64,000 bases of DNA from Escallonia rubra (Eukaryota > Streptophyta > Magnoliopsida > Escalloniales > Escalloniaceae), in NCBI GenBank assembly GCA_033065855.1, contig JAVXUO010000005.1:25004-89003 (forward strand), read 5' to 3'. This document shows, one piece after another, positions 1-62,709 of the stretch (the first letter of the stretch is position 1; the number at the start of each line of letters is the position of its first letter). Below the pieces are notes generated by a model. It was not told the origin of the DNA and did not search any database. It was given only the letters and a program-made list of their open reading frames with translations. The position numbers were made by a program, and so were the translations under genes.

Positions 1-2
1 TG

Positions 3-242
3 AATCGGCCGAAAGGCCGCATACGCGGCCTGCCTAGCACGACTGCTCGTGCCGTGATAGGAGCGTCCTCACCCCCTGCTGCCCCTCCACAAACACCGGC
101 TCCTCAGCGTCAGTTGGACGACGAGGAGATCCAGCGCATTGCTACAGTGGTGGTGAGGATGATCAGGGAGCAAGGCACTGGTGGACATGCCGAGCCAGCC
201 CCGGATCAGCAGGATTCAGATCCGGGATTCGGGAACCCCTGA
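3..242 (+). CDS. TnpA-like (Transposase_24 / Ptta-En/Spm type) protein, C-terminal exon, partial
   Basis: This is the C-terminal end of the second protein of a plant CACTA element, the DNA-binding partner of the transposase. The frame is open from the window edge to a TGA at 240-242, and the protein ends in GFGNP. It begins with a basic NRPKGRIRGLP segment, then an alanine/proline-rich linker, then an acidic amphipathic helix (EEIQRIATVVVRMIREQG) that could be a short coiled coil. The copy at 25643-25999 on the minus strand matches it with scattered substitutions (for example VVVRMIREQG against VVCRMMREQG). Upstream exons are off the window. The role in binding subterminal repeats is inferred from the family. 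Confidence 0.8.
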   Translation, partial: NRPKGRIRGLPSTTARAVIGASSPPAAPPQTPAPQRQLDDEEIQRIATVVVRMIREQGTGGHAEPAPDQQDSDPGFGNP

Positions 243-504
243 TGAGCCCCTTCTGGTGCCCGTTCCTAGCTTCCCCCCCCCCCCGCCCCCCACGCCCGGC
301 TTGTACTCTTCTCCCCTCCTCTAACCGGCTGTATCGGTTCCCGGCTTGTACATATGAGTCTTTTTTATATTGAAACATTTTTTATAATTGATTATATATA
401 TTTCTTTCTGTATTGATTATTGTGCGTTGTTGTTGAGAAATGAAAATTGTATTCCAGGTCTGGAAAATTGAAAATAAATAAAAAAATTCAATTTTTTTTT
501 TACT

Positions 505-880
505 TTTGGCGACGGATTAATTCCGTCGCTAAAAGTATTCCTACTATCAGTTAATTAGCGACGGAATATTTCGTCGCTAAAAAGCTTATTTAGCGACAGA
601 ATATTTCGTCGCTAAAACATTATTCCGTCGCTAATTTGACAAAAAAGAAAATAAATTAAAATACTAAAAATATAATTAGCGACGGATATTCCGTCGCTAA
701 TTAAAAATAAATCCGTCGCAAAAAATTACATTTTTAGCAACGGATTTCAAAATTCCGTCGCTAAACTATTAGTGACGGGCTTTTATACGAGGGACTTTTA
801 GCGACGGTGAATCCGTCGCTAATTGTTTTAGCGACAGATTTTAGGCTTTTAGCGATGGATTTCCCCGTCGCTAAAAGCCT
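505..880. repeat. CACTA-1 subterminal repeat array (TAGCGACGG motif)
   Basis: TTAGCGACGG and its inverse CCGTCGCTAA recur many times in both orientations, often as facing pairs that could fold into hairpins. In En/Spm such motifs are the TnpA binding sites. The mirror array is at 25045-25400. Between 243 and 505 there is only a C-rich 3' untranslated stretch and AT-rich sequence. Confidence 0.85.
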
Positions 881-2607
881 TTTTTCTTGTAGTGTTCAAC
901 TTTATTAGCAAGCCATAAAAATATCAAAGTCATGCACTGAAATATCATTGCATAAGACATTGTATAGTTACAAACAAAAGGAAGGTTAAGTTGCTGTACA
1001 ATTTAAGTTAACAATACACAATTTCACTAGAAACACCTTCTAGAAGGGCAAAAGGCCTACATATATTGCTGTTCAAAAGATGAAACGCAACGCAATTTGC
1101 AATATCAATCAGTCACTCCCATTGCTCGATCTATATGCATTTGCCTCCACATTATCCTGGGACATAATCAAGCACTCATTAGTGTGCGATTCAGTTGACT
1201 ACCATGAAGTTTATTCAACTTCCTTAATAGAACTGAAAACACCAAGTTTCTTAAAGTGAATGACTATAAAAATACTTAGAAGAAAAGATACCAAGAGAAC
1301 AAGTCTGACCAAGATATGCACAAGTTGATATGCTGAGTTTAGCTAGTATGGGAGGACTTATATAGTTGGCGCTCATCAACTTTACAAGCAAGAGGATCAA
1401 ATAAAACAAACTATTTAAAACCATCACTCAACTAACTCGATCCTTTCCTTTTTGAATTCTAGAACTCGTTTTGGTTATTGCATCAAGGACTCAGAACTTG
1501 AAAACCATGAACCAAATATCTCCAAGCCCTTTTCATCGACAATCGGACACATGCAGGACATGATGATCATAAAAATTTATATGTTATAACTGTTAGAACA
1601 ATTTAATTCAAAGCTATATATGGTTCATATAAGCAAACTAAGAATGTGAACTGAGCGAAAAGCCTTGCTACCCATTGGATGCAGTGGACAAACCAAACAA
1701 AAATGCCAAAGTATTAAGTGTTTGAATGCATAAAGATAGATTCAACAAACGTTGCAAAAAGTATGATGTCTAGCCAAGTACATCACAAGATCAGGTATAT
1801 ATACAAAGCACGTGTTTGCAACAGAAGTAGGAAATATTAGCATTGACAGATATCGGAATATTAATGTAAGGTGACAGAATGCGCGTATCTAATTCTCTAA
1901 TGAAATCTGATCGAAGCAAGATTCAGTAACATGGGTTTTTTGGTTCAAAAACACGAAAGAGCAACAGCAGGGAAAAGTGCTAGGCGATGACTAAAACTAA
2001 AACTTAAACCACTGGTCAGATTCCAGGGAAATGTGCAAGCCATTTCGATAAAAACCCAACAACAATGCTCGACCCATTTAGAAAATTTTGGTGACTCGGG
2101 GATAAACACAAGAGGGTGTGAATGGCTTATGTGCAAAGATCACAATACTCTCTTTAATTACTGTGTCTCAACCCTTTTGCTTACCTATACTGGTCAAAGC
2201 CATCATACAATAAGACATAGACTATTGATACATAATCCTGCATTCTACTGAACAAAGCAACAGCAAATCATGTTCCCGGATAACTAGAAATGTTCTTCCC
2301 TCGCAAAACTCAGGTATTTATAGTTTCAAGGCTTAATTATTTGGCATGGTCAATTCAACAAGTAAAAAGGATTACCTCTAAACAACAAAGTCCAACTAAC
2401 AGGTAAAGGTAGAAAACCAAAAAGGGCAGTAAAAGATTAAAAAATACGGGAAAAGAGAAGACCTGTAGAAAAACAGAAAAGAAGCTATAACTCACAGCAT
2501 TAGACTTTACCAATATCAACTAATCTTGAAGAGAAAATATCCAATTTTCTCTTCTTAAATCTTTCACAAAGAATTGCAGTGCAAATGCAATCATTGTGTG
2601 TACCTGA

Positions 2608-2910
2608 CTAGAACCAGTAGCTAGCAGGGTCTGTAAAACTATTCCTTGTAAGTCGTTCAAGAGCTTCTTCCATCCTTACCATTCGTGCCTTCATTTCATT
2701 CATTTCGGCTAGCTCATCCTTAAGAGAACAAATATGTTCTTGAAGTTTCACATTATTGGAAGAACCCCACGTGTTCGAAATATTGGCCATGGCCCCCATT
2801 GCCGTCACCCTACCATGCCGGTCCTTACCCATAACCTTGGAAAGAATATCATTTGGACCGCTATCATCCTGGGGCAATAAGACCTCCTGTTGTAGTCTTT
2901 CGATATCATC
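2608..2910 (-). CDS. TnpA-like (Transposase_24 type) last exon of CACTA-2
   Basis: The exon opens after a good acceptor (TTTTAG at 2911-2916 on the minus strand) and runs in frame for 100 residues to a stop at 2608-2610. It contains VMGKDRHGRVTAMG, which resembles the conserved V-x-G-K-x-R-x-G-R-V-R-G-x-G box near the end of plant Ptta/En/Spm proteins. A leucine- and glutamate-rich helix follows (LQEHICSLKDELAEMNEMK), a likely coiled coil, and the protein ends SYWF. Upstream exons were not resolved. A possible first exon is at about 6112-6168 (MLAARGITRRK..., followed by a GT donor), but its link to this exon is a guess. Confidence 0.65.
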   Translation of the reverse strand, partial: DDIERLQQEVLLPQDDSGPNDILSKVMGKDRHGRVTAMGAMANISNTWGSSNNVKLQEHICSLKDELAEMNEMKARMVRMEEALERLTRNSFTDPASYWF

Positions 2911-4945
2911 CTAAAAGACAATAAAAAACAAGTCATTATCAATGAAAGATTGAGACCGAAAGAAAAATATAGGAGTTCTCGCAGGATAAGCACTAGCTAT
3001 GGCATTTACTATACTAAAATACGAATAGGATAGTTGAAATATAGATTTCTTTTCTGGGTTCAAATGCATAGAAAGAGAAACGATAATAAACTAGTTTTCA
3101 TCGTGTGTGTGTGTGTATATCTCTTCAGAAGTTTAAAGGTCGACCCAGTATAGGTACATATGATTGATAAGCTTCAACATCTTGTAAGATGGAATAATTA
3201 GCAAGAAACTAGGGGTTGACAGGCTACAACTATCTGCAGTTCATGAACACAGAAAAATGAAACAGGGGACTGATTCAGTTTAAGATACTAGCATGGCAAG
3301 CAGGACTTTTAAGTACAAGAATAAGGATGCATTGAACATTTTTGCTGAGGATTATAAACAAGATAATACATCGCACCCTACAGTTTAAAATTCACTAAAG
3401 ACAGTGGATTCAACTACCACTTAAACAAAATGATATGAGAATGAGAATTTATCCATGCAGTCAACTATCGTAGCAGTATTTTAGCATAATAAAAGGATCC
3501 TTTGAATGGTGGGCAAGCTAAACGTCAACAGATTGAGTAGCATGAGGCAAGTGAATTGTGTGTACCTTAGGGCAAAACCTGTTGGATTCTGCTAGATAGA
3601 GCTTACCTTCCTTGAAACCAAGTAAATCCCGATCAGAATGTAAACTTGCATAAGCTGAATCCTTCTACATGGCTTTAGAGATTATATCCCTTGGATAGTG
3701 AATTTAGTGTTCTACAATGATTCTATAAATGTGAAGCATCAATTTGGTCAGCATAGTAATTGGAAAGGCATGACCCAAATGTCCTGCGTATGGCCCTTAG
3801 AAGATGTATATTCCAAGGTCAGCAATTTAAAGGTAGACACAAAATCACTGATAAACAAGATACAAAAAACTGCCACCGCATAATCAGATAACCAAAGGAA
3901 AATGAAAACAATTTCTAAATCATAATCAGAAGGGAGTTCAAGAAATCTGATTATTCACTACTGGATGCGAGCCTCTTGGTATTGCCCAACATATTTGATC
4001 CAGCGTTAGCTCAAACTAAAGCAAAGGGATACCTCTGGGACAAAAAATCAAGCCAGGCATGACCTAAGACGATGGTGGCCTATCATGGATCAGTAGCATT
4101 TTCATGTGACCCTTAACCAAACCCCCCCACCCCCCCCAAGCAGTTCCACGCGACATACCACCAAATGTCCTCTCAATCTAGAGTCCATACACTCAGAAGT
4201 AGCATTTTTCACCAGGAATGAGTTTGACTTCCCAAGGAGTCGGGTCACTCGTTTTTCTCCTGAAGTGAGGTGAGACTTTACCAGGAGTGGGTTAAGTTGG
4301 CAAAGTCCCTACAAAGTAGGTCGAGTGGTCAAGAAAGCTGCAAGTGGCCAGGTGGCATCCTCTTCTATAAGAGTACGGATTGACATAGTCAAGGTAGTTG
4401 CAACTTCATTATGTAGCAAGCTCTGCTTGCATTTGAATAAGTTAAAATTATAAATAGTGGAGTAAATATAGGGGTATGTTTCCACATATCTCCAACTAGG
4501 AGTAAGTGCTTTAGCGGAGACAAGCTTGCATAGACATACGAAACAAAGGGCTTTGCCTTCATCAAACATCTACCAGCTTTCTAAGCTTGAGTTACCCTAA
4601 ATTAAGCATTATATGCCTGCTTATCATTACATTGTTCATAATTATGTAATTCTTGTTGAAAGTACATGTCCACCATGAACAAGGTAATCTGCTTTATTTT
4701 TTGCTGCTAATGCTCTTCCATCTGCAGTGTAATAAATTGCGTATTCCGATTTTAGCCGTTAATTCAGCTTCGTTCCTTGCTTTATTTTAATTTATTACAA
4801 CAATATCCTAATCAAGGCATATGAACCTAGAAGAATTGCTAGTTCCCTTACTTCAGCGCACTAAGAGACAATGTATTAAATTTTGCACACACTTCACCAC
4901 ACTAAGGACAGTGTAGGCTTCACCTATATACATTTTGCATACACT

Positions 4946-9770: not shown

Positions 9771-12700
9771 CCATTATAATAGAGAGTAGTGCGAGAAGAT
9801 TAGAAAATAAAGAGAATCACGCTGGAGTAGCACATAATGATAGTCGAGAGACCTTATTGCTGGCTAGTCATGAAGCTAGTTGTAATAATGGTCAGTGGTT
9901 GTTAGACTCCAGTTGCAGTAATCACCTGAGTGGAAACAAGGAAATTTTTTCTCATCTAGATGAGTCCTTTCGCTCTTCGGTGAAACTTGGTGATAACTAC
10001 AAAATTTCAGTCCTAGGGAAAGAGAGGATTGCTATTAAAGTATAGGATGGGTCTTCAAATTATATTTCTGAAGTATACTATGCTCCTAGTATTTGTCAAA
10101 ATCTGTTAAGTGTGGGACAACTAGCAGAAAAAGGGCTATGATTTGTGTTTTAACAAGCACGGATGCATTCTGAGTGATGCAAAGAAGGGCACGGTATTGA
10201 AGACAAAGATGTCAACCAACCGTTTATTTTCGACGAATATCAATTATGGTAATTCTTCTTACTGTAATTCTGTGGTTATCGATGATAATTGGTTATGGCA
10301 TATGTGTCTGGGGCATTTGAATTTTGGAAGCATCAAGTTCCTTGCAAATAAGGAATGGGTTTTAGGCTTGCCAACTATTCAAGTTTGTGAGCCCTATGTT
10401 ATGGGGAAGAAGCATAGAGATCCATTTCCTATAAGGCAGCCATGGAGAGCCAAAAGTCCACTTGAGCTTGTGCATTCAGACTTATGCTATATGGAAGTTC
10501 CATCTAATGGAGGTAGCAAATACTTTATTATTTTCATTGATGATTTCAGTAGAAAGGCATGGGTCTATTTTTTGAAGCAAAAATCTGATGCATGTGAAGT
10601 ACTTAAGAATTTTGTGGCATATGTTGAAAAGCGAAGCGGTTATTCTCTCAAAACTTTGAGAACTGATAGAGGAACTGAATATATTGTTTGCGATGATGAA
10701 AAAGCGTGGAATTAATCATCAATTGACGGCCAGGCATACTCCTCAGCAAAATGGAGTGGCAGAAAGGAAAAACAGAACTATTATGGATATGGTGAGAAGC
10801 ATGATGCATTGTAAGTTATTACCTAAAAGTTTTTGGGCAGAAGCCGTGGCTTGAGCGGTTTATATTTTGAACATGTGCCCTCTTAGAAGTATTCGTGATA
10901 AAACTCCACAAGAAGCATGGAGCGGACAAAAGCCTAATATTAGTCAGCTGAGGGTGTTTGGTTGTATGCCTATTCACATGTACCTGATCAGCTGAGAAAG
11001 AAACTTGATGGCAAGGCTGAAAAATGCATCTTTATTGGTTATAGTTTGGAAACAAAGGGTTACAAGCTATATAACCCAAAGGCTAAAATGGTGATTATCA
11101 ATTGGGATGTTACTTTTGACGAAGACGGAGTATGGGATTGGTCAAAAGAAGAACAACGATTGTTGCCAGTACCGATATTCATAAACAATGAAGTAGAAAC
11201 TATTAATCAAATAGGTGAGCCGTCTTCTCCTCCAGTTCCTGAATCCGCCTGCTTATTTACAAGATTAAGAAGTCGATGATGATAATGAGGAAGAAGTTGC
11301 CCATTATGCTTTGTTTGCAGATTATGATCCAGTAACGTTCGAGGAAGCAACTAATGATGATCATTGGATTAAAGCAATGAATGAAGAAATTCATGCCATT
11401 GAGAAGAACAATACATGGGAGTTAACAACTCTACCAAAAGGAAAGAAGCCAATTGGAGTCAAGTGGGTGTACAAAACAAAGTACAAGCCCAATGGTGAAG
11501 TGGAACGCTATAAAGCGAGGTTAGTGGCAAAAGGATACAAGCAAAAGCCAGGTATTGATTACTTTGAAGTATTTGCTCCTGTTGTTAGATTGGATACGGT
11601 TCGTATAATCATTTCTCTAGCTGCTCAAAATCACTGGAAAATATATCAAATGGATGTTAAGTCTGCATTCCTAAATGGTATACTTGAAGAAGAAGTTTAT
11701 GTTGAGCAACCACCAGGTTATGAGAAAAATGAGAAGAAGATAAGTTTATAGGTTGAAAAGGGCTTTATATGGTCTGAAACAAGCACCGAGAGCATGGTAT
11801 ACTCGTATTGACACTTATTTTCTTGATCATGGTTTTCATAAGTGTCCATATGAACATACTTTGTACGTCAAAACCAACAAGGATGGAGACATTGCCATTG
11901 TTTGCCTTCATGTAGATGATTTAATCTTCACGGGCAACAATTCGAAGTTTTTGTCAAAATTCGGGGAGGATATGATTGCTCAATTTGAGATGACAGATAT
12001 AGGGTTAATGCCTTACTTTCTTCGCATAGAGGTGAAGCAGACAAACAAAGGCATATTTATTTCACAAAAGAAATATGCAGGAGATATCGTGAAGAAATTT
12101 AAGATGGATGCTTGCAATCCAATTCTAATACCAATTGAAGAAAGGTAAAGCTCGTGAATGATGGAAGCGGTGATTTGATTAATGCAACAAATTTTCGGAG
12201 ACTTGTTAGAAGCTTAAGGTACTTAACAACAACTAGACTTGACATTGTCTATGGAGTTGGGATTGTAAGCAGATTTATGAATTCACCATAACAGTCTCAT
12301 TGGCAAGCTGCAAAGCGAATTTTGCGATACATTAAAGGTACATTTGATGATGGTATATTCTACTCTAGTTCTAATAACATTGAGTTAGTTGGATATACAG
12401 ATAGTGATTGGGGTGGTGACACTGAAAAACGAAAAAGCACTTAAGGTAATGTATTTTTTCTCCATTCGGGAGCAATTTCTTGGTCGTCAAAGAAACAACA
12501 AGTAGTAGCTCTTTCAACAACGGAAACAGAGTATATAGCAGCAACAAGTTGTGCTACTCAAGCAGTTTGGTTGCGGAGAATGCTTAGTGAATAACAACAT
12601 CAACAAGATTGTCCTACAACATTTTTTTGTGATAACAAGTCAATAATTGCTTTAACAAAGAATCTGGTGTTTCATGGTCGCAGCAAGCATATTAATATTT

Positions 12701-16472: not shown

Positions 16473-16476
<4 letters not shown>

Positions 16477-16515
<39 letters not shown>
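16477..16515. repeat. (TA)n microsatellite, left flank of element A
   Basis: About 19 TA units lie immediately left of the GGGGGCCGATCC terminus. The matching tract continues at 22383-22404 on the other side, so element A sits inside one (TA)n array. Confidence 0.95.
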
Positions 16516-16518
<3 letters not shown>

Positions 16519-17561
16519 GGCCGATCCCCATCGACCGGTGGGAAAAATCTAATTTTCCCACCCAATCGCTGCTCTTTGCGGCGATTGCATGAAATGCAAA
16601 AAACCAATCGCAAGTCTTTCTTGCGATTGGAATTATTGAAAAAAAATCCAATCGCAAGAAAGACTTGCGATTGGAATTATTGGAGCAAAAAGCCCAATCG
16701 CAAGTCTTTCTTGCGATTGGTGTTGTCCTTTTTTATGTCCTTTTTTTCTCCCCTTCTCCCCCCGGTCAACAATCACGGCCTCATGGCCCCCACCCCTCCT
16801 CCCCCCCCCACCCCTCCTCCGGTCAACCTTCCTCCCCCCCCCCCTCCTTGGTCCCCACCCTTCATTTCCCCCGTCCTTTATTTATTTGTCACTTAATTAG
16901 ACAGTTTTTTACGAATTTATAAAAAATAGTTAGAGCTAGATTTTGCCAAAGTGCAAAAAAGAGACCCTAATTATTTTTAAAAGATAGGTATCAGGTAAAA
17001 ATTTCAAATTTTTCCAAATACTAGAAACGGGTAAACTGATACGCGCAACCTTGTAACTTTGCAGTGTAATTTAAAATATCAAGCTAACGCGATTTCGCGC
17101 GAAACTTTTTTGAGAACCCTAGGATGTTGGGAAGTTCCATTTCCCAGGAATTCGGGCCATTCCGAAGCCGTTAGCAATTTTTTTGCCGAACGGGCTTTTA
17201 AGCGCTCGATCCGGACACCGGTTCGGGATTTTTGGGCGAAAAATCCCGTAAAATACTTTTTAGATCAAGAATGAACTCAGGAAGCTTAAAATAGCATTTT
17301 AAAGCACTTTTGAGATTTTTCCTGATGCCAGGGGCATTTTGGTAATTTGTCACCCCGAGAGGGGTATTTTGGTAATTTTACAGTGTCAAATTTTTCGAAG
17401 GACTTCTCAGTCCATAAATGTAAGCACAGCACCTGAAAGGCTGATTTGAAGCCGATTCGCGGGGATTAAATGTCGCTAAAGGTGAAAACTTAATTAGACA
17501 GTTTTTCACGAATTTATAAAAAATAGCTAGAGCTAGATTTTGCCAAAGTGCAAACAAGAGA
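16516..17561 (+). repeat. Element A left inverted terminal repeat
   Basis: It contains the terminus, a weak hairpin and three perfect hairpins (16563-16720), a C-rich spacer (16750-16870), and the module starting AATTAGACAGTTTTT that carries GATTTCGCGCGAAAC and CCTAGGATGTTGGGAAG. It ends with a second AATTAGACAG start near 17491. The same modules recur at 21080-22040 in reverse and at 63128-64000. Confidence 0.85.
16563..16720. repeat. Subterminal hairpin ladder, element A left
   Basis: Three 27-bp palindromes at 16604-16630, 16648-16674 and 16694-16720 have perfect 11-nt arms CCAATCGCAAG/CTTGCGATTGG around a 5-nt centre. The middle one is in opposite orientation. A looser stem (CAATCGC ... 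GCGATTG) lies at 16563-16587. Confidence 0.9.
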
Positions 17562-17828
17562 TAATGAACCCCTGAAAGGTTGTTTTTCAAATGACTGCTT
17601 AGTCCACAAATGTAAGCAAAGCACCTGAAAGGTTGTTTCGAAGCTGATTTGGGGCGTTAGGGTGATAATGAACCCCCGGGGGCATTTCGGTAATTTGCCG
17701 CTCATCGGGGGCTATTTTGGTAATTTTACATTATACAAATTTTCCAACAATTACAGTGCAAATAATTTTTATTCTTCTTTTATTTAATTCTATGACTTGT
17801 TGAGAATGATATAATTTTTATTTTTTAG
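17562..17828. other. Inner leader between element A terminus and FAR1-type fragment
   Basis: It repeats pieces of the terminal module (CCTGAAAGGTTGTTT twice, GGTAATTT with CCCCGGGGGCATTT) and leads into an intron-like AT-rich stretch ending TTTCAG at 17830-17835. Confidence 0.5.
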
Positions 17829-17842
17829 ATTTCAGTATAAAT

Positions 17843-18314
17843 ATGGATGACACTGGAGGAAGCAATTTTTGTGAAGGTTCTGATCCACCTTACTTGGGTC
17901 AAGTTTTTCAAACACTGGACAAAGTCGAAGCATATTACAGAGCATATTCGAAAATGATGGGTTTCGGTATTAGAACTAAGACGACTAGAAAACGGGTGAA
18001 TACAGAACAAATTTGTGCAAGACTATTTGAGTGTCATAGTAGCACCGCATGTACCCCCGGTCGTTCAGATCAGTGACGAAGGGACAACAAGACAAAGAAA
18101 ACGAGACACATTTCCGGGTACCGGCTGCAAGGCCCATGTGTATGCAGTACACCGGAAAAATGAAAACCATTGGGTTGTGACGGGAGTGGACACATAGCGA
18201 AAGTGTGCGTTGTGTAATAAGATGACTGATCATGACAAGAGAAACCATTATAGAGTGTTAGGTCTCGCACCTGGCAGTATGGTCGAGGAGGACGATGATG
18301 ATGAAGAGTGTTAG
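17843..18314 (+). pseudogene. FAR1-type DNA-binding domain fragment
   Basis: From ATG 17843 the protein reads PYLGQVFQTLDKVEAYYRAY then SKMMGFGIRTKTTRKR and ICARLFECH. This is the start of the FAR1 zinc-finger-related domain (F-x-S/T-x-E-x-A-Y-x-F-Y-x-x-Y-A-x-x-x-G-F-x-x-R). The continuation (RDTFPGTGCKAHVYAVHRKN, then NHWVVTGVD) is in another frame from about 18039, so a frameshift separates the halves, and a stop at 18195-18197 follows. The last open part ends in an acidic tail (EEDDDDEEC) at 18314. FAR1-type domains occur in FHY3/FAR1 regulators and at the N-terminus of related Mutator-like transposases. No MULE core or SWIM domain follows, so this is a truncated remnant. An acceptor (TTTCAG, 17830-17835) suggests it was a spliced exon. 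Confidence 0.7.
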
Positions 18315-18427
18315 GGTTAATGTTTCAGTTGTATAACGAATAACTTTTATAATGTTTAAATTTGTGATTTGGTTTGTTGAATCTTTAATTTGTGATTTGG
18401 TTTGTGGATTATTGATATTTTTTGAAG

Positions 18428-19095
18428 GGCCTATTCGCGCACACTTTAGCGCCCAATTCATAGCTTCCGAAAAATCTTGTAAATTTTTTGGTTCATTGCA
18501 CCTCAAGCACGCTAGTTAGCCCATTCGTAAGAATTTCGGCAAAAAACGAGACACGTTATTTTTTGAGTTTTCCTATGAAAGGCCTATTCGGGCACACTTT
18601 AGGGCCCAATTCATAGCTTCCGAAAAATCTTGTAATTTTTTTTGTCACTTTTTTTTTCGCTCATTGCACCTCAGGCAAGCTAGTTAGCCCATTCGTAAGA
18701 ATTTCGGCGAAAAACAAGACACGTTATTTTTTGGGTTTTCCTATGAAGGGCCTATTCGGGCACACTTTAGGGCTCAATTCATAGCTTCCGAAAAATCTTG
18801 TAATTTTTTTTGTCACTTTTTTTTCGCTCATTGCACCTCAGGCACGCTAGTTAGCCCATTCGTAAGAATTTCGGCGAAAAAGGAGACACATTATTTTTTG
18901 GGTTTTCCTATGAACGGCCTATTCGGGCACACTTTAGGGCCCAATTTATAGTTTCCGAAAAATCTTGTAATTTTTTTTGTCACTTTTTTTTCGGTCATTG
19001 CACCTCAGGCACGCTAGTTAGCCCATTCGTAAGAATTTCGGCGAAAAATGAGACACATTGTTTTTTGGGTTTTCCAATGAACGGCCTATTCGCGC
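18428..19095. repeat. Tandem array, about 153-168 bp unit
   Basis: The marker GGCCTATTCG begins at 18428, 18581, 18749, 18916 and 19083, giving four full units of 153, 168, 167 and 167 bp plus the start of a fifth. Each unit also has GCGCCCAATTC/GGGCCCAATTC, a T-run, CATTGCACCTCA and GCTAGTTAGCCCATTCGTAAG. The array separates the FAR1-type fragment from the mobile-domain gene, and the gene's last exon reads into it. Confidence 0.9.
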
Positions 19096-20848
19096 ACACT
19101 TTATCCCCCAGGCCCTGACTCTGGGCTGAGAGCCGTACGCGTCAGGAGGCAAGCGACTAGACGGCTCCCCTTGGTAACCCCGGTACGCAACACTAAAGTT
19201 GTGAAGATCAGTCTTGTACCTCTCAATGGAGCTCTTGAGACTGTCAGCCGCATGCGCGACATACCAGTCAAACCGCTCGAGCTGCTTGAACACCTCAGTG
19301 CCCTGGTCAACCTAAAAAACATGCATAGAAAAATCACCGTCATCATTTCAGGCATGGTCGAGAAGGTGCGCAAATAAATATTGAAACAACACTAGGTTGA
19401 CTTACAATGCTCAATGCCCAGAACTGGTCATAGACCTCGCGTGGCGCATACGATTTGGTCCTCACTTGGGAAGGGCGATTCACCCTCGTGCGCGTCACCT
19501 TGAGAAACCACTGCAGGTACTCCTCAGTACTGGTGCCATCGTCCTTGAGCGATACAAGGCTACCATACGTTTCTTGCCAAGTATTCCACTGTTGCACCTC
19601 GTCGCTCAGCAAATTTAAGGCATCAGGCACCTCAAAATTCGGACCTCGACCGCTCCTGTATGGCCGCATGTCTACAGCGGGTTTTGGTATCCCTTGTAGA
19701 CAGCCAGCTTGTTTCATAGCTCGATCGGGCATCTGAAACTCACATACTTCGAAGTGAATAAGTGGCACCCAAACAAAACCTGCCAGCACGTACGACACCG
19801 GAAGTTGCCAACACAACTCATCCAACCGATGCATCACCTTCCCATATGGCTGCCACGTCACCTGGGATGCATCCATCATATCTAGTTCCCCCCGATAGAA
19901 TATTAGATGGTGGTGAGGGTCTACCCGTCTCCTCCGTTTGGTCGTAGGCCCCCAGGCCCACACCCTAGGCCACGTCTCATCGGAATCAGCTACGGGTTGT
20001 GGATGACCCGTGGGTAGCCTCTCGTAAGACCAAACCTGTGAACGCAAACATTATATGGAATTAGTTATTAATCACGAATATATTGACACGTCAACCAAGA
20101 ATATAAATGCTAAATCCTGTAACAGAGTGATGCAGGCGGCAATGGACTTGGCACCCTTTCTCGTAGCTTTGTGCAATGCTCGATATAGGTGCACAAGGAC
20201 AGCTGAACCCCACGAATACGAGTATACCTCCTCAAGATCCTCCAAGAACACCATATACTTCGGATGCACCGTGTTTTTTTTTTACGTCGGAAGTAATATA
20301 GATCCAGTAATATACAAAAGGAATGCCTTCGTATACGTCACCAAATCATGAGGAGTGTATTCATCCGGTAGCTCGCCGTATTGCTCTCTCAGCCATTTAA
20401 GTTTTATGCCGTTGGTTGTAAGAGCGTCCCTCGGAATTCCCGGAAAATACTGCCTAGCCATCTTCGCTATGGATGCAGACGTTTTACTCGAAGTAATGGG
20501 TCTGCCGTGACATGGGATTCCAAGTATAAATCCGACGTCCTCTAATGTAATAGTCATTTCACCAAACCGGAAGTGAAATGAGTTTGTCTCGCCCCTCCAT
20601 CGTTCAACTAGAGCGGATATAAGGCAATCGTCGTGCCAAGACCAAATCCCGCAATCGGTGAACACGGTCAAATTTTGACGGTGTAATAGTTGTATTTGTT
20701 CCTCGTTCAGTACCCACTCGTCGAGGTGACTTGTGCTTTGAATTGTTTCCAAAACACTCATATCGACAGCGTCAAATACGTGCCTCGCGACGTGGTCATC
20801 GTCATCGTATATGATTGATGTATCATGAGGTCCAGGGTTGAAATCCAT
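19018..20848 (-). pseudogene. Plant mobile domain (MAIN/MAIL1-like) gene carried by element A, nearly intact
   Basis: Three exons on the minus strand: 20848-20117 (244 codons), 20035-19406 (210 codons) and 19311-19018. Start MDFNPGPHD. The plant mobile domain (PF10536 type) shows VERWRGETNSFHFRFGEMTI, TLEDVGFILGIPCHGRPI, VTYTKAFLLYITGSILLP, YSYSWGSAVLVHLYRALHKA, then VWSYERLPTGHP and DASQVTWQPY. Acceptors and the second donor (GTAAGT) are good and phases agree. Two defects are seen: an in-frame TAA at 20282-20284 inside an A-run, and a GA instead of GT at the first donor (20116-20115). Total about 550 codons, near the length of MAIN (about 500). The last exon (ERFDWYVAHAADSLK...) runs into the tandem array and ends there, so the natural C-terminus may differ. 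In Arabidopsis MAIN and MAIL1 act in nuclear silencing and meristem maintenance; here the gene is transposon cargo. Function of this copy is unknown. Confidence 0.85.
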
Positions 20849-21370
20849 ATCTGTAAGAACAAAATATAATCGTAAACCAACTTAGCGTCCATAATATTTA
20901 CATTCCAAAACTGTAACTGAATCGTTAACCTAGCTTACCAACGCATTAGCAATAGTCATTAAATCATATTTTAATGTATTAAAATCATTCCTCACTTCCC
21001 ACCACTCCGAACGCTTAATAACGCTAGTTCCCTAAAATTTAGTGCCAACGTGGTTATTTAACAACATCCCCCCCCCCCCCCATTTACGGGATTTTTCGCC
21101 CAAAAATCCCGAACCGTTGTCCGGATCGAGCGCTTAAAAGCCCGTTCGGCAAAAAAATTACTAACGGTTTCGGAATGGCCCGAATTTTTGGGGAATGGAA
21201 CTTCCCAACATCCTAGGGTTCTCAAAAACGTTTCGCGCGAAATCGCGCTAGCTTGATATTTTAAATTACACTGCAAAGTTACAAGATTGCGCGTATCAGT
21301 TAACCCGTTTCCAGAGTTTGGAAAAATCTAAAATTTTTACCTGATACGGATCTTTTAGAAATAACCAGGG
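20849..21370. other. Upstream flank of the mobile-domain gene and duplicated terminal module
   Basis: 20849-21060 would hold the promoter of the mobile-domain gene; no clear TATA box is seen. 21080-21370 is an extra inverse copy of the terminal module (the same text recurs at 21680-21960), following a C-run at 21068-21080. It duplicates the coding-like but non-genic GATTTCGCGCGAAAC region. Confidence 0.6.
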
Positions 21371-22382
21371 TCTCTTGTTTGTACTTTGGCAAAATCTAGC
21401 TCTAGCTATTTTTTATAAATTCGTGAAAAACTGTCTAATTAAATTTTCACCTTTAGCGACATTTAATCCCTGCGAATCGGCTTCAAATCAGCCTTTCAGG
21501 TGCTGTGCTTACATTTATGGACTGAGAAGTCCTTCGAAAAACTTGGCACCGTAAAATTACCAAAATACCCCTCTCGGGGTGACAAATTACCAAAATGCCC
21601 CTGGCATCAGGAAAAATCTCAAAAGTGCTTTAAAATACTATTTTAAGCTTCCTGAGTTCATTCTTGATCTAAAAAGTATTTTACGGATTTTTCGCCCAAA
21701 AATCCCGAACCGGTGTCCGGATCGAGCGCTTAAAAGCCCGTTCGGCAAAAAAATTGCTAACGGCTTCGGAATGGCCCGAATTCCTGGGAAATGGAACTTC
21801 CCAACATCCTAGGGTTCTCAAAAAAATTTCGCGCAAAATCGCGTTAGCTTGATATTTTAAATTACACTGCAAAGTTACAAGGTTGCGCGTATCAGTTTAC
21901 CCGTTTCCAGTATTTGGAAAAATCTGAAATGTTTACCTGATATAGATCTTTTAAAAATAACTAGGGTCTCTTTTTTGCACTTTGACAAAATCTAGCTCTA
22001 GCTATTTTTTATAAATTCGTGAAAAACTGTCTAATTAAGTGACAAATAAATAAAGAAAGGAGGGGTGGGGGCCAGGGGGGCAGGAAGGTTGACCGGAGGA
22101 GGGGTGGGGGCCATGAGGCCGTGATTGTTGACCGGGGGGAGAAGGGGGAGAAAAAAAAGGACATAAAAAGGACAAAACCAATCGCAAGAAAGACTTGCGA
22201 TTGGGCTTTTTGCTCCAAAAATTCCAATCGCAAGTCTTTCTTGCGATTGAATTTTTTTTCAATAATTCCAATCGCAAGAAAGACTTGCGATTGGGTTTTT
22301 GCCTTTGATACAATCGCTGCACAGAGCAGCGATTGAGTGGGAAAATAAGATTTTTCCCACCGGTCGATGGGGATCGGCCCCC
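21371..22382 (-). repeat. Element A right inverted terminal repeat
   Basis: Mirror of 16516-17561, with small length differences in the C-rich spacer and about one base in thirty differing by eye over the module. Confidence 0.85.
22178..22294. repeat. Subterminal hairpin ladder, element A right
   Basis: Three 27-bp palindromes at 22178-22204, 22224-22250 and 22268-22294 use the same CCAATCGCAAG arms as the left ladder. The middle one has one terminal mismatch. Confidence 0.9.
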
Positions 22383-22404
22383 ATATATATATATATATAT
22401 ATAT
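22383..22404. repeat. (TA)n microsatellite, right flank of element A
   Basis: About eleven AT units directly abut the terminus and continue the tract at 16477-16515. Confidence 0.95.
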
Positions 22405-27579: not shown

Positions 27580-28720
27580 ATGGAGTAATTATGGGATGTA
27601 CAAGGGCTAATTAGGGCTAACTGGGTTATTAGGGAACAAGACACGATTATTAATTATAGCTGATTAGAGTTGATTAGGACTAATCAGAGTTATTTAGTCC
27701 TAATTAGGGTTTAATAATTGCCGAGTAGTGATGATTAGTCCTAATTAGGGCTAATTGGGCTTAATTGGGTTATGTTAGGGCTAATTAATGTTAATGAGGG
27801 ATAGTTTCGGATGATTATAGCTGACTAGGGTTGATTAGGACTAATTAGAGTTATGTAGTCCTAATTAGGGCTTAATTGTGCCGAGTAGTGATGATTAGTC
27901 CTAATTAGGGCTAATTAATGTTAATGCGGGCTAGTTTCGGATAATTATAGCTAATTAGGGTTGATTATGACTAATTAGGGTTTAATTGTGCCGAGTAGTG
28001 ATGATTAGTCCTAATTAGGGCTAATTAGGCTTAATTGGGTTATGTTAGGGCTAATTAATGTTAATGAGGGATAGTTTCGGATGATTATAGCTGACTAGGG
28101 TTGATTAGGACTAATTAGAGTTATGTAGTCCTAATTAGGGTTTAATTGTGCCGAGTAGTGATGATTAGTCCTAATTAGGGCTAATTAGGCTTAATTGGGT
28201 TATGTTAGGGCTAATTAATGTTAATGAGGGCTAGTTTTGGATAATTATAGCTAATTAGGGTTGATTATGACTAATTAGGGTTTAATTGTGCCGAGTAGTG
28301 ATGATTAGTCCTAATTAGGGCTAATTAGGCTTAATTGGGTTATGTTAGAGCTAATTAATGTTAGTGAGGGCTAGTTTCGAATAATTATAGCTAATTAGGG
28401 TTGATTAGGACTAATTAGGGTTATTTAGTCCTAATTAGGGTTTTGATGGTGCCGAGTAGTGTTGATTAGTCCTAACTAGCGCTAATTAGGCGTAATTGGG
28501 TTATGTTAGTGCAAATTATGACTAATTAGGCTAACTACAATCAATATGCACATAATTGGGTTCATTTGGGCTAATTTGAGGTAGTTACAGCTAATTTGAA
28601 TTTTATCAGGTTCTTAGGGTTAATTAAAACTAATTAGGCTCGTTAGAGCTAATTAGGGTTAATTGATTTACTAAAATATTGTTAATCAGGACTAATTAGG
28701 GCTAATTATAGCCAGCGCTG
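27580..28720. repeat. Complex tandem array of CTAATTAGGG-type units
   Basis: The array is built of short variants of CTAATTAGGG, TTAATTGGG and GATTAGGAC, organised into larger units. The marker GCCGAGTAGTG begins at 27720, 27880, 27990, 28150, 28290 and 28451, giving unit lengths of 160, 110, 160, 140 and 161 bp. It decays after about 28500. It lies where the 5' part of a CACTA gene set would be expected. Confidence 0.9.
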
Positions 28721-28835
28721 GAGCCACGATTAGATTCCAGGGGGTGCATGCTAAAAATGTCGCATTAACCTAACTAACCTAAATTTCATGCACATTCAAC
28801 AACCTCAATTCCGACACCTCATATAGGGTGTCGAT

Positions 28836-29060
28836 ATGGTGTCCGATACGTTTCTGACACTTCCGGACACGTGTCAGACACATACCGACACGTGTCTGAC
28901 ACATACCGACACGTGTCTGACACATACCGACACGTGTCCGACGCCTTTGGACACGTGTCCGACGCCTCCGAACACGTGTCCGATGCCCAGCGACACGCAC
29001 CTCCGGACACATCGGCATACGTTAATTTGTTTTCTAAATGTCGGACACCGTCGATCAGAC
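28836..29060. repeat. 21-bp minisatellite with palindromic ACACGTGT core
   Basis: ACACGTGT occurs at 28867, 28888, 28909, 28930, 28951 and 28972, exactly every 21 bp. The first units contain GACACATACC spacers, the later ones GACGCC. Open frames through it on both strands are repeat artefacts. At 29103-29135 and 29189-29220 a TCCAATTGGGTCCCATCC segment is also duplicated. Confidence 0.92.
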
Positions 29061-29449
29061 GTGGTGTCCGTGTCTGCGCTAACTAACAGGTATCTCAATC
29101 CAATTGGGTCCCATCCTCCGTCAACAATCTCAATTCTCAATTCTCAAATGCTCAATGCAATAAAAATTAACAAAAATCACACATTCAATCCAATTGGGTC
29201 CCATCCTCCGTCAATAATCTCAATATCTCAAATGCTCAATGCACAATTAACAATCTAAAATCATCAATTAACAACCTAAAATCATCAATTCATAATCGCA
29301 ATTACTTCAAATGCACAGCTAATAACCTAAAATCATCGATCAATAATCACAATTATAAAACGCACAATTAACAACCTAAAATTCTCAAACAAATGAGCAA
29401 TGTTCAAATTTTTTAAAAAATGTTCAAAATTCACATATCCGATGCGCTT

Positions 29450-29862
29450 GAATTATTTCAATTTAGGGTTCGATTGTATTAGGGCATTCAATTTAGGGTT
29501 CAATTAGTTTCATTTAGGGCTCGGTTCGATTAGGGAATTCAATTTAGGGTTCAATTACTTCAATTTAGGTACAATTAGGGGGTTCTATTGATTCAATTGA
29601 TGGTTCGTTTGATTTGAGGCATTAAATTTAGGATTCAATTAGTTCAATTTAGGGTTCAATTAGGGGGTTCTATTGATTCAATTTAGGGTTCGGTTGATTT
29701 GAGGCATTCAATTTAGGGTTCAATTAGTTCAATTTAGGGTTCGGTTGGATTAGGGGGTTCAATTTGGGGTTCAATTAGGGTTCGGTTAGATTGGGGCAAT
29801 CAATTTAGGGTTCAATTAGTTCAATTTAGGGTTTAGGGTTTAGGGTTTAGGGTTTAGGGTTA
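29450..29862. repeat. TTCAATTTAGGG degenerate repeats ending in telomere-type (TTTAGGG)5
   Basis: About twenty variants of CAATTTAGGGTTCAATTAG are followed by five perfect units of the plant telomere motif TTTAGGG at 29825-29859. The gradual change from degenerate unit to perfect telomere unit suggests local expansion rather than a chromosome end. 29061-29450 is AT-rich with TCAATTAACAA-type short repeats. Confidence 0.88.
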
Positions 29863-32974: not shown

Positions 32975-35660
32975 CTATTTGAAGCCAAGCTTCTCTACCA
33001 GTCCCTTCAACCATAATGCCTCCTTAGCTGCCTCTGTCAATGCCATATACTTGGCCTCCGTAGTTGACAATGCTATAATAGACTGTAACATTGATTTCCA
33101 ACATATCGGCCCTCCATAGAATGTAAAAATATATCCAGTCGTGGACCTTCTGGAATCCAAGTCCCCAACATAATCAGAATCCACAAAGCCCAATACCTCA
33201 CCTTTTGCTCCATCACGATCAAACATAATGCCAAAGTTGGTCGAACCTTCTAGGTAACAGAAGATCCACTTCACTGCATCTCAATGCTTCTTTCCTGGGT
33301 TTGCCATATACTTGCTGACCATACTAACTGCATGTGAGGTATCAGGTCTAGTACACACCATGGCATACATAAGACAACCAACCGCATTTGCATACGGTAC
33401 TCGAGACATATACTCAACATCTTCTTCTGTGTGAAGATAATTGAAAATGAGCTCCCAAAGGTGTACTAACCGGTTTAGCGTTGAGCATACTAAACCTCTC
33501 CAGTACTTTTTCAACATAGCCTTTCGATCTTTTTGAATCTCTATACCAAGGATCTTCTTGGCAGAACCAAGATCCTTCGTATCAAACTCCATGCTCAACA
33601 TTTTTTCAAGTGCAGAATATGAGACTTATTTTTCGCAACAATCAACATATCATCCACATATAATGTAAGCAACAACAGTGAACCATCATCAAGGACTCGA
33701 TAATACACACAACAATCATACTCACAGCGAAAGTAACCATGAGTTACCATGAATGTGTCGAATCGCTTGTACCATTGCCGAGGAGACTGCTTCAAACTAT
33801 ATAAGGACTTTTTCAGCTTGCACGCATAGTCCTTCTTCCCAGGCTCAATAAATCCCTTGGGTTGCTGCATGTAGATCCTTTCCTCCAAATCACCATGGAG
33901 GAAAGCTGTCTTCACATCAAGATGCTCCAACTCCATATTCTGCACCGCTATAATGGACAATATGAATCAAATAGAAGTATGCTTAACTACTGGCGAAAAA
34001 ATCTCATTATAATCAATTCCTTCTTTTTTAGAATATCATTTTGCCACCGGTCTTGCCTTGTACTTCTGATATTCTTTTTTCCTATAAACCCACTTGCATC
34101 CAATAGCCTTCACACCCTTTGGAAGTTTTACTAATTCCCAAGTCTGATTCTTCCCTAGAGATTCCATCTCTTCATCCATTGCTGTCAACCACGAGTTACT
34201 ATCCTCTATCTTGATAGCCTCGTTGTAGCTGGTAGGATCTCCACTTCCCACGATCAGTGCAAACGAGACCAAGTCCTTAAAACCATACCTTTGAGTTGGT
34301 TTCTTAGTACGTGACTCTCTATCTCTGACTAGATTCCAAGAATCTCTAGGATGCTCCTCTGGATCTTCCAAAGACTGCTCATCTATAGACCCATCTATAG
34401 ACTCATCAGCTATTTTTTTCCTCTGCTCATGCAACTCTATCTCCACTATGTGACCATGCCTCTCGCTAGAAGTTGCATCCGTATTCAACATCTGTGCTTT
34501 ATTGAATACCACATCTCTACTAATCACCTTCTTCTTGGCCACTGGATCCCATAACATGTATCATTTGACTCCTTCCTCATAACCAAGGAATATACATTCT
34601 TTCGACTTAGGATCAAGTTTAGATCGTTCTTCATTCTGAGGGTGAACATATGCAGGACAACCAAAAATTCTCATTGCAAAAACATTAACTTATTTACCAG
34701 ACCATACCTCCTCGGGAACTCAGTGATTAATGGCAGATGATGGAGAACGGTTGATCAAGTAACAAGCTGTAATTAACAGCTTCAGCCTAGAAACTCTTAG
34801 GCAAATCTGCATTCAACCTCATGTATCTAGCTCGCTCTAGCAAGGTTCTGTTCATCCTTTCGACAATCCCATTCTGCTCTGAAGTCCTCTTCACTGAAAA
34901 GTGTTTGATGATACCCTTATCCTTGTAGAACTGCAGAAACTCCTCATCCTTGTATTCCATGCCATTATCTGATCTGAAGTACTTAAGCTTCTTACCCGTC
35001 TAATTTTCAACTCTAGCCTTCCATTGCTTAAACACGTTGAAAACTTCAGACTTATGCTTCATAAAGTACACCCATACCTTTCTTAAGAAACCATCTATAA
35101 ATGTAACAAAGTAACGAGCTCCCCCATTTAAGATATGCTTGATTGGTCCCCAAACATCCGAATGTACATAGTCTAGAACCCCTTTACTAGTATGAGAAGC
35201 AGTTTTAAAACTAACTTGTTTCTGCTTCCCAAAAACACAAAATTTGCAGAAGTCCAGCTTGCATGATTTCACTCCCTACAGCAACTTGCGTTTGTAAAGT
35301 TCTAGCATACCTCCCCCACTCAAGTGTCCCAGCCGTTTATGCCATAACTCAGAATTATCATTGCTAGAACATACATGAGTTGATACTGAAGCTCCACCTA
35401 TAACTGTGTTCCCTATCAGTTTATACAAATTTTCAGTTTTCTGACATTTCATTATCACCATGGCACCTTTGCTGACTTTCGTGACTACACCTTTTATAAA
35501 TATACTGTAATTTATAGAATCAAGTGTGCCAAAGGAAATCAAATTCTTCTTCAAGTCCGGTATGTACCTTACATCACCTAAGGTTCTCACAATCCTATCA
35601 AACATTTTAATTTTAATGGTTCCTATCCCCATAACTTTACAAACAGCATCATTACCCATT
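32975..35660 (-). pseudogene. pol: Copia-2 pol region: integrase, RT, RNase H (fossil)
   Basis: From right to left: GAG-pre-integrase box (LWHKRLGHLSGGGMLELYKR, near 35310); integrase pieces (DYVHSDVWGP, FVTFIDGFLRKVWVYF); reverse transcriptase (NQTWELVKLPKGVKAIGCKW, EHLDVKTAFLHGDLEE, LTLYVDDMLIVA); and RNase H (LGFVDSDYVGDLDSRRSTTG, ALSTTEAKYMALTEAAKEAL). Several breaks. Confidence 0.9.
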
Positions 35661-36674
35661 TAACACCGTACCACCGTTACATGGAGTAAGACAATCAAAC
35701 CATTCTTTATGTGGGCACATATGAAACGAACATGCAGAGTCAAGAAACCATTCCATAGAAAAAATGTTGTCTCTAACTGATAAAAGATTACCTTCTTGCT
35801 GCTCAACCAAGGAAACCAAGTAGAGATCACCATCGCTGCTTTTGTCATCATCTTCTTCAGCAACATTAGCATTGTTCACATGTTTCTTTCCGTTCTTCTT
35901 CTCCTTCCTTTCTGGACACTTCCTTGCAATGTGACCAATCTCTTTACAATACCAACATTCAATACTGAACTTGTCCTGCTTTCCACGAGACTTAGACCTG
36001 TTTTTTCCATGTCCTGGATTTCTGCTTCTAGATCGACCTCTACCTCTTTTATGACCATTCTTTTTTTTAGACCTTACCACCAGACCTTCACCTTGACTGC
36101 TTGAACTCGTCCCATTAACTCTGCTTGAGTCTATAAGAGCCGACATAACATCATCAACAAGCAATGTCTCCTTCCCATTAAGCAACGTAGTTTTCAAGGT
36201 CTTGTATGATTTTGGAAGCGAAGATAACAACATAATTGCCTGATCTTTTTCCTCGAGTTTAACATCTATACTCGATAATTGGGACATCGATCGGTTAAAT
36301 TTTGATATATGGTCACCCAGATCTGAACCTTCATCCATCCGTAACTAGTACATATATTTCTTCAGATATAATTGATTTGACAAAGATTTTGACATATATA
36401 TCTTCTCTAATTTCTGCCACAGAGTAGTTGGAGAAGTCTATGTCAAAACCTGGTACTTAACCTTCGGGGCTAGATTCAACCGTATCGTAGATACAACCTT
36501 GGCCTGTAATTCCTCCCAATCGTCCTGATCCATTGACTCAGGCTTATTCCCCTGCAAAGGCTTGAGCAATCTTTTCTGCACAAGGATATCCTTCACCGTG
36601 CTCTGCCATATGCCAAAATTCATCTTCCCATCAAATTGTTCACATGCATACTTCATGGTCGTGTTGTTCGACAT
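35640..36674 (-). pseudogene. gag: Copia-2 gag and protease region (fossil)
   Basis: It starts MSNNTTMKYACEQFDGKMNF at 36674. It contains a UBN2-type gag domain, a basic stretch, a CCHC zinc knuckle (CWYCKEIGHIARKC, near 35950) and a protease-like WFLDSACSFHMCPHKEWF near 35720. Broken. Confidence 0.88.
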
Positions 36675-44966: not shown

Positions 44967-45895
44967 GATTCCGGAAGGATGAGCAGGAAAAAGGAGACTT
45001 TGCCAGTTGACGATGACTTTGCCCGAGACGATGCAAGCTGAGAATCGTTATATATATGTTGGGTGGGTTGTCTACCTCGAAACGAAAACATACCTGAGCC
45101 TTTCAGACCATCTACTATCTCACATTCCTTACAAGGTTCGTCTTCTAAACTCAACTTTCAATTTTGCTTCCTTCTGTGATATGTTTTTCTTGTCATATGT
45201 TAGAGGATCACATACCTGAACCTGTCTACAGTTTGTGGGTGCTTGTGTCTGTTTCAAATATAACATTCTTGTTTTCTTACTGCTATACTTCTGTTACTTT
45301 TAATGTCATTTTCTTACTTTTTGAGCTGTTTGAATTGGTTTCTGGGAAATGCACTATACCAATATTTGCCTAATTGTCACAATTAGTGTCTAGTGCGTTC
45401 TATCTGATTCTTTATCTGACTTGGGCACACAACTCCCTACATTATTTCGACAATAGCTGTATGTGAGCGTCTCACTCACCCCAATCCATAAGTCCCCTCT
45501 TCAGTTCAGTTCCATTGAGCAACACTAACGTAGCTTTTAATTTGCTTGTTGCATGCGCTATGAAGAAGTTCTTGTGCTTATCGATCTACAAATAAAGCCC
45601 CTTTCGTCCTTCTTTTATATTGTTTTGAGTGCTTTTTGCAAGTGGAGACATGTTGTTCACGTCTATAAGCAAGTCTATATGCGGGGGACAAAGTTACGAA
45701 ATAATCTTCATTTTAGTGGCAAAAGTTGTCGCTAATATGGTTAGTCAATACGCAAGTAAGATATTAGCAAGACTTGAAAAGTGCCTCCAAAACTCTACAG
45801 TTGGAGGAAAATAATGAAGAAGGCATTGTGCTAATTCCATCTTCTTCTTCCTTTAACTTCGACAGTAAATAGAGAGGCAAAATAGAGACCATAAA
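44967..45895. other. Upstream region of the DUF247 gene
   Basis: T-rich sequence without a recognised gene. A TATATATATG at about 45049 and a CT-rich stretch at 45837-45860 (TTCTTCTTCCTTT) just before the start could be promoter and leader, but nothing is decisive. Short frames at 45007-45220 and 45553-45735 are unsupported. Confidence 0.4.
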
Positions 45896-53486: not shown

Positions 53487-54287
53487 CATCCTCCATCAGT
53501 GATCAGTCCATCTACTGATCTACTTCTCCGACTCCGGCCGAGAGATCAACACGGTTGCGGGCTTGCGGCGCTGCCTATCTTCTTAACCGATCTTGAAGCT
53601 CAACCGATCGGTGTAAGGTGTTACCCGACATCTTGAAGCTCAACTGATCAACTCACCACCGTCGTTCACCTCTGTTCGTCACGGATATTTACGAGCAAGG
53701 TTAGTCGTCCCTCTTTAAACTCCTCATTTAATCATTTATTATGAATACCGACCACACCTCAATGAAAATAAGTTAGAACTTTGGACTGTTGAATGAATGA
53801 ATGACGATTTGGAGTTTGCCAGTTTGGATTGTTGAATATTGAGAAGATTTGGAACTATGGAGTTTGGACTATTGAATATTGATAATAGATTAAATGGTTT
53901 CTTGTGTTTGGATTGAATTTTTGGGATTGGTATTGCCGAAATTCTGAAAATCATGCATCTTTGATTCTCTGTACTACATTTGTCACTGCTGCCTATACAT
54001 TTGTCACTGCTGCCTATGATTCAATGAACTGTAATGTGGACTGTTAATCTGTTACTACTGAAATAAACCACTGAAAGAAGATTATAAGAATGACTGGATG
54101 ACTGAATCAAAAAACCACCACCGAAATAATTCAAATAAACACTGAAATGCCAAAGTGACTACTCCTGAATCTGTGAATTGCGATAAAGGATGAGTGAATC
54201 AATAAAGTATTGCACTGGTAATAGGAAATACTGAAATAAAACCACTGAAAAAAGTCCTTGTTTCTTGTTGTTGCTGTTGTAGGATCG

Positions 54288-60637: not shown

Positions 60638-60681
60638 GGGGGCCGATCCACACCCACCGGTGGATAAAAAAAATTTCTCCA

Positions 60682-60977
60682 CCCAACCGCTTCTCTTACA
60701 TGCGGTTGGGTACGATTTCTTTTTCTCGTGGGCCCCACCACAAAAAAGCACTCCTTTTTTTTTTTAAGCCCAACCGCATGTAAGAGAAGCGGTTGGGTAT
60801 GATTATTTTTTTGACGTGGGCCCCACCACAAAAAACCACTCCACCCAACCGCTTCTCTTATACGCGGTTGGGACAATTTTTATTTTCCCCAACCGCTTCT
60901 CTTAGAAGCGGTTGGTAAGCACTTTTTTTTTTAACAATTTTTTTAAAAAACCAACCGCATATAAGAGAAGCGGTTGG
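60682..60977. repeat. Subterminal hairpin ladder, element B
   Basis: Five hairpins at 60682-60710, 60769-60797, 60844-60872, 60889-60915 and 60951-60977 have arms CCAACCGC...GCGGTTGG. The loops vary around TTCTCTTA and orientation alternates. They correspond in place and spacing to the CCAATCGCAAG ladder of element A, but the arm sequence differs. Confidence 0.9.
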
Positions 60978-61068
60978 TGGCTTTTTTTTTGGGTGGCTCC
61001 CACACAAAAAATTTCAGATTTTTTGGTTGGCTCACACAAAAAAAAAAAAAAATTTTGAGCACAAGCCT

Positions 61069-61295: not shown

Positions 61296-61439
61296 GCCGC
61301 CCCCCCCCCCACGCGGGTGATGCTCCCCCGTGACTGTCCTTCCCAGTGCTTTTTTCTTTGTTTGCACAGTCTGCCAAATTTTTTTTTTTTGCAGAGACCA
61401 CGGGTATTTTTTTCCCTCTTTTTTCTTCTCTCTTCCTTT

Positions 61440-61600: not shown

Positions 61601-61653
61601 AGTATTTTGAATTTCCTTATAATTCAATGTTAGGTTTATACAAATCAGCGTAT

Positions 61654-62446: not shown

Positions 62447-62483
<37 letters not shown>

Positions 62484-62670: not shown

Positions 62671-62709
<39 letters not shown>

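Follow-up and report, generated by a model that had tools for sequence, protein, structure and literature searches.

What kind of transposon sits between (TA)n microsatellites in Escallonia rubra, and how does it enter a target in which its duplication cannot be read directly? The question is raised by a 64,000-nucleotide stretch of contig JAVXUO010000005.1 (positions 25,004 to 89,003; hereafter the window), in which an element that we call A occupies 16516-22382 and a second element, B, begins at 60638. We consider it very likely that both belong to one cut-and-paste family of Mutator-like elements (MULEs) with a FAR1/Jittery-type transposase that inserts mainly into (TA)n, and that A would be moved in trans by way of an ordinary 9-bp staggered cut. 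An earlier note on the window had described A and B as sharing a terminus, an inner module, a (TA)n setting and an inner hairpin ladder, all of which held up, and had proposed two genome-wide checks, a tabulation of flanks and a hunt for a partner with a MULE core, which came out in its favour.

Two related elements and their seating in (TA)n

Element A is complete at 5,867 bp, as delimited by self-alignment and by its relatives in the genome. Repeat alignment gave it a left terminal inverted repeat (TIR) of 1,046 bp (16516-17561, forward strand) and a right one of 1,012 bp (21371-22382, reverse strand) that are 93.1% identical and separated by a Kimura two-parameter distance (K2P) of 0.037, and both ends read GGGGGCCGATCCCCATCGACCGGTGGG. 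Alternating TA runs flush against the element for 41 bp on the left (16475-16515, a row of the repeat finder TRF, last letter A) and for 22 bp on the right (22383-22404). Element B opens at 60638 with GGGGGCCGATCCACACCCACCGGTGG; over the initial 61 bp it is 80% identical to A's terminus, while an inner module at 63132-63998 is 84-89% identical to A's terminal repeats. What is present of B is its left part (60638-64000), with the terminus, the hairpin ladder and the inner repeats of the TIR. The last position of the window is also the last of contig C430 (89,003), so B's far end lies outside the assembly. A complete sister, L076, is 6.8 kb long with 2.1-kb TIRs at 95.9% identity, and B belongs to a subfamily related to A's. 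Since B aligns with L076 on either side of 61654-63087 and this stretch is missing in L076, it is foreign to the family. The insertion lies within B's terminal repeat and measures about 1.43 kb, of which about 1 kb is a TA-rich microsatellite (TA/CTATATA). With ends like TGTTTGGC...GCCAAACGC, it looks like a nested small transposon.

Folded as DNA, A's left terminus forms a ladder at 16516-16735 composed of hairpins of GGTGGGAAAA and of AATCGCTGC together with CCAATCGCAAG units, the last pairing singly or as a 28-bp foldback, and the right TIR carries a matching ladder. The fold of A's first 220 nt gave z = -12.7 and was equalled by none of 200 shuffles, and that of B's first 353 nt gave z = -16.0 with none of 100; pairing in both ladders is far beyond chance. 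An alignment of 45 A-type termini, 44 of them distinct, has 2,488 cells in A's ladder structure, and 96.4% of these were paired, against 27.9-46.1% in slid controls. The ladder is conserved, but its covariation is weak and does not establish upkeep by compensatory change, with both-sided changes in 2 of 59 pairs (9 cells) and two pairs reached by 284 of 500 shuffles. Foldback TIRs of a modular kind, like those of the MuTAnT elements discussed below, are found in both A and B.

To place these elements we surveyed the window's own genome (566 Mb in 3,222 contigs). A's first 220 bp returned 587 candidates, B's first 213 bp returned 514, and a query from a third subfamily (L045) returned 331, with 40 scored in each case. 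The 75 flanks read comprise 46 from the first A-type set and the window, 20 from the B-type set and 9 new ones from the third-subfamily set; a partial terminus (L050:192) and L054, with no terminus match inside 12 bp of the query start, were left out before counting. At 62 of these ends the terminus directly adjoins 8 bp or more of alternating TA, and at 72 there is (TA)3+ no more than 40 bp away, with L031 (at each end) and L034 (at one end) as the exceptions. The family inserts mainly into (TA)n. An exact 26-base terminus pattern has 472 matches in the genome, 236 per strand, and its reversed control none. Both ends could be paired for 18 A-type elements, A among them, which span 1.8-6.9 kb, have TIR matches in every case and show a K2P of 0.010-0.152 between the two TIRs. 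The long TIRs expected of a Mutator-like family are therefore present in A, in all 18 paired A-type elements and in L076.

TA tract lengths vary across sides and copies, and the number of terminal Gs also varies in MuTAnT ends (PMC4486113), as would fit a seating that is only apparent, with the assembly breaking or expanding at TA or with the TA belonging to the element ends. We find this very improbable. L031 has the same ends without TA, the sequence past the TA is unrelated among copies, and the end GGGG...GATC stays constant though TA length varies. As a separate observation, the leading G run is shortened in some ends of L036, L040 and L082-L085 (3-4 versus 5) with TA in its place, much as the terminal G varies in MuTAnT.

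A deleted transposase gene and its full-size relatives

The earlier note had credited A with two plant genes and no transposase. The transposase core is indeed absent, but one of the two genes is what remains of a transposase gene, of which only the two ends are kept, and the other is a plant-mobile-domain gene. The remnant lies at 17810-18313 on the forward strand, where a FAR1 DNA-binding region with a frame change (17810-18197) is fused near 18190-18197 to a C-terminal tail, as judged from PF03101 and from alignment to a relative on contig C2769. PF03101 scored below its curated cut-off on A's FAR1 piece (E = 1.4e-5 and 0.01), and the like piece in L045 scored above it (43.9 bits).

The relative, C2769:12724-21955, is a sister element with TIRs about 92% identical along 0.92 kb and TA flanks at both ends. 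An open frame of 677 aa in its interior (stretch L086) contains MULE (PF10551, E = 1e-31), FAR1 (2.6e-10) and SWIM (1.1e-4) domains. By domain content it thus has the FAR1 N-terminus, core and SWIM C-terminus that define the FAR1 (WRKY-GCM1)-type, or Jittery-type, MULE lineage (PMC2528002). A phmmer search of this transposase against solved structures found no match. The frame carries FDTTY at 244, ITDQD at 305 and SRSEAMNSFF at 413 (open-frame numbering), motifs that are presumably the sites of the catalytic D, D and E. A matches L086 at 1-310 and 2144-3051, and the intervening 1.83 kb or so is gone from A; the FAR1 remnant is 91% and the tail 95% identical to the C2769 gene. Because the C2769 gene matches both its start and its tail, A's FAR1 piece is the family's own core-deleted transposase gene. 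The suggestion of a Mutator-like origin from long termini and a FAR1 fragment therefore stands, but the fragment is no cargo, and we rejected captured host DNA as its source since it matches the transposase of a sister element between family termini.

A protein search gave 4,322 candidates, and the 66 scored are near full-length copies at 92-100% identity. As 58 of these 66 are free of stops, the family may be recently active. Among the contigs up to C613, for which all termini are listed, an inward-pointing terminus lies no more than 9 kb from 13 of the 16 transposase copies, with a chance expectation of about 0.0075 per copy; on contigs up to C1596, with a partial terminus list, the same holds for at least 17 of 35. 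Both termini surround the transposase in C16, C79, C390 and C1041, at spans of 11.4-13.6 kb, and the ends in C1041 are of the B subtype. A MULE-type transposase thus belongs to the family by the domains of the C2769 copy, by the 66 scored copies and by its linkage to the termini. On this reading A is a non-autonomous deletion derivative that retains its termini, both extremities of the transposase gene and a plant-mobile-domain gene truncated ahead of its Ulp1 part. Full-size relatives would supply the transposase in trans, and we infer that a transposase of the C2769 type moves A and recognises the TIR/hairpin region.

A probable target site duplication within alternating TA

MULEs typically leave a 9-bp target site duplication, within a range of 8-11 bp. 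In this family it can be read outright in L031, the only copy outside TA, where the 9-bp ATTTTAGAA flanks either end; within TA the support comes from phase, and it is for an odd length. A duplicate in alternating TA would be invisible as a repeat, and to this extent the earlier note was right that such a target hides it. The concealment is incomplete, however, since a duplication of odd length puts the TA on the two sides of the element out of phase. With each flank read inward from outside, the letters that adjoin the element on the left and on the right should then differ, while after an even or zero duplication the outward flank letters should agree, and slippage by 2 bp preserves parity in both cases.

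Among 21 strict pairs, with clean TA of at least 8 bp on each side and equal register, the letters differ in 17 (one-sided p = 0.0036). This set counts L040 as different, its first T being read into the terminus, and omits L049; leaving L040 out and taking L049 in again gives 17 of 21. With equal register and any run length 21 of 26 pairs differ, and over all pairs except L031 21 of 28. A hidden odd-length duplication within TA is statistically supported by these counts, though they are no proof of it.

The published SaTar elements led to a speculative proposal of a different route (PMC5907723), in which a circular intermediate carrying microsatellite filler enters (TA)n by homologous recombination and leaves no duplication. 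Such a route could account for the stacking seen here, since for 8 of the 18 paired elements a further MULE-like terminus lies no more than 100 bp off, stacked end to end over TA as in SaTar arrays, and for the four strict pairs with the phase of a zero or even duplication. It is unlikely in our view, as it expects about half of the pairs to differ where 17 of 21 do, L031 has a plain 9-bp duplication, and stacking would also arise if elements inserted time and again into long TA tracts. At L040, like foreign ends (...CAACGGATCAGCTCCC) face the element from either flank across TA, as if L040 had landed in the TA separating two elements of another subfamily.

Several points weigh against cut-and-paste insertion into (TA)n by this transposase. 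The four misfitting strict pairs become 7 of 28 over all pairs but L031, and the idea of the phase test postdates the reading of the first flanks, with 10 of 11 pairs differing in the first A-type set and 7 of 10 in the later set, which is non-significant by itself. On contigs up to C613, scored for T-ended flanks only, 19 pairs divide into 11 T/not-T, 2 T/T and 6 not-T/not-T, and past C613 at least C1041, C1391 and C1395 are T/T. Flush ATATATAT precedes 205 of the 472 exact termini, a count that excludes A-ended flanks (TATATATA plus terminus), so this genome-wide share of flush seating covers the T-ended half. The open frame of the C2769 transposase has no ATG before residue 33, and the 777-779-aa frames of other copies are known from search rows only.

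The plant-mobile-domain gene and known families

A's second gene lies at 19087-20929 on the reverse strand, separated from the transposase remnant by an array of 167-bp tandem repeats (18423-19103, from tandem-repeat and self-alignment rows). It is a plant-mobile-domain gene (PF10536, E = 5.9e-25, 7.8e-11 and 3.3e-18) in three exon-like blocks, 20929-20117, 20050-19346 and 19311-19087, the first of which is frameshifted. Sister copies carry a complete Ulp1-protease exon of which the third block is a stub. In nine fetched copies the exon runs on into a protease region of the Ulp1 type, and the two that were checked match Peptidase_C48 (E = 3.2e-8 and 3.4e-8); in A and other short copies it ends after 68-75 codons. 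In C2769 the plant-mobile-domain/Ulp1 gene is beside and convergent with the transposase gene.

A possible alternative is that the element picked up this gene from the host by chance and carries it as passive, Pack-MULE-like cargo of no use to itself, a reading to which we give slightly less than an even chance. Within the A-family, dN/dS is indistinguishable from 1 (0.89, 0.61-1.30; 1.13, 0.67-2.10; and 0.61, 0.37-1.15 for the three exons), and purifying selection there is unproven, as all four intervals include 1. A's own gene is frame-broken and shortened, and the Ulp1 part is absent from A-type copies. On the other hand, the gene occurs in both A-type and B-type elements, and first-exon dN/dS between A-type copies and L076 is 0.57 (0.38-0.89). 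From this value the gene was probably constrained during subfamily divergence, although the same value would be expected if a constrained gene of the host had been captured twice. The gene also sits next to the transposase in C2769, and its convergent orientation resembles the way Ulp1 genes are arranged in Kaonashi MULEs (PMC2528002).

The host plant-mobile-domain proteins MAIN and MAIL1 function in transposon silencing, and for transposon-borne ones a role in countering it has been suggested (PMC8616336); in Vandal elements, Ulp1-carrying VANC genes direct hypomethylation (PMC13317346). By analogy, the protein could be functional in anti-silencing, as a rival of MAIN that is borne by the transposon, is joined to a SUMO-protease-like domain and would keep the family expressed, parallel to VANC/KIU of Vandal, with A-like non-autonomous copies deriving from carriers. 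We hold this to be doubtful. Our literature search found no paper uniting plant mobile domain, ulp1 and transposon, though the fusion may nonetheless be published.

The earlier note knew of no family combining a microsatellite target with a hairpin ladder, a claim that does not stand given the published MuTAnT, SaTar and pineapple mMITEs. MULEs that target microsatellites, TAFT and Micron among them as well, have already been described (PMC4486113, PMC5907723, PMC8449440). The family is a separate one of this described sort, with its size, long TIRs and plant-mobile-domain/Ulp1 gene as its own features. The nearest description is that of MuTAnT in Medicago truncatula, with AutoMuTAnT (PMC4486113). 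Like our family, MuTAnT is seated in (TA)n in most copies, with few outside that have 9-bp duplications, and shares foldback TIRs of repeated modules, a variable number of terminal Gs and a Jittery-like transposase in the full-size element (PMC4486113). Unlike our family with its TIRs of 1-2 kb, MuTAnT elements are mostly 200-300 bp with a mean TIR of 47 bp, the longest being 4.9 kb, and the excerpted account does not mention a plant-mobile-domain/Ulp1 gene (PMC4486113). By its ends our family is not MuTAnT, since, compared by eye with the published mask GGGGTTTGCTAGAACA, the termini GGGGGCCGATCCCC / GGGGNNNGATCC have only GGGG in common with it (PMC4486113).

SaTar and AgS-MULE elements of guayule and rice are likewise non-autonomous, defined by TIRs, targeted to microsatellites, arrayed and partnered by full-size MULEs, with ordinary duplications in some copies. 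They differ in using diverse microsatellites, with 10-bp duplications outside (PMC5907723), where here the ends read have TA and the one case outside it has 9 bp. The SaTar authors doubted cut-and-paste (PMC5907723), whereas our phase test favours it. The Ac-mMITEs of pineapple are also MULE-derived and (TA)n-seated, with clustered adjacent insertions and a minority with 9/10-bp duplications, but they are miniature (210-570 bp), and a full-size element is undescribed in the excerpts of that source (PMC8449440). TAFT/TAFTA of maize and Micron of rice insert into TA repeats, as cited by PMC4486113 and PMC5907723, a likeness by description only. Kaonashi/KIU and other Ulp1-carrying MULEs, grapevine Jittery-like carriers included, share the Ulp1 protease domain, and in Kaonashi it is also opposite in orientation to the transposase (PMC13317346, PMC2528002). 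In Vandal/KIU elements Ulp1 occurs with VANC in non-TIR MULEs (PMC13317346, PMC2528002). Our family does not fit that type, having long TIRs, a TA seat and Ulp1 behind a plant mobile domain, with VANC itself not searched for.

Elsewhere, the window holds an intact-looking DUF247 plant gene at 45869-47194 (PF03140, E = 1e-117), a hAT-like transposase RNase-H domain (E = 1e-31) in a 593-aa frame at 54249-56030, and copia-type retrotransposon gene fragments at 10125-10715, 34036-36344 and 49704-50354. An interstitial telomere-like tract at 29825-29861 has 5.3 exact copies of TTTAGGG and adjoins degenerate TTAGGG-like arrays (27650-29833). In L049, positions 1-3870 hold a 1,290-aa open frame of the NB-ARC/LRR disease-resistance type no more than 2.1 kb from a family element. 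The large frames of L048 and L049 were rejected as family genes, the former being a gypsy element and the latter this disease-resistance-type gene.

Published accounts are split on whether MULEs enter microsatellites by ordinary cut-and-paste or by recombination of circles. The TA-phase comparison can distinguish an odd duplication from the lack of one, does so without an empty site and is robust to 2-bp slippage, and here it favours cut-and-paste. The plant-mobile-domain/Ulp1 gene also touches the question of transposon proteins that oppose host silencing, as suggested in PMC8616336, and given its possible recent activity the family may be usable as a test case.

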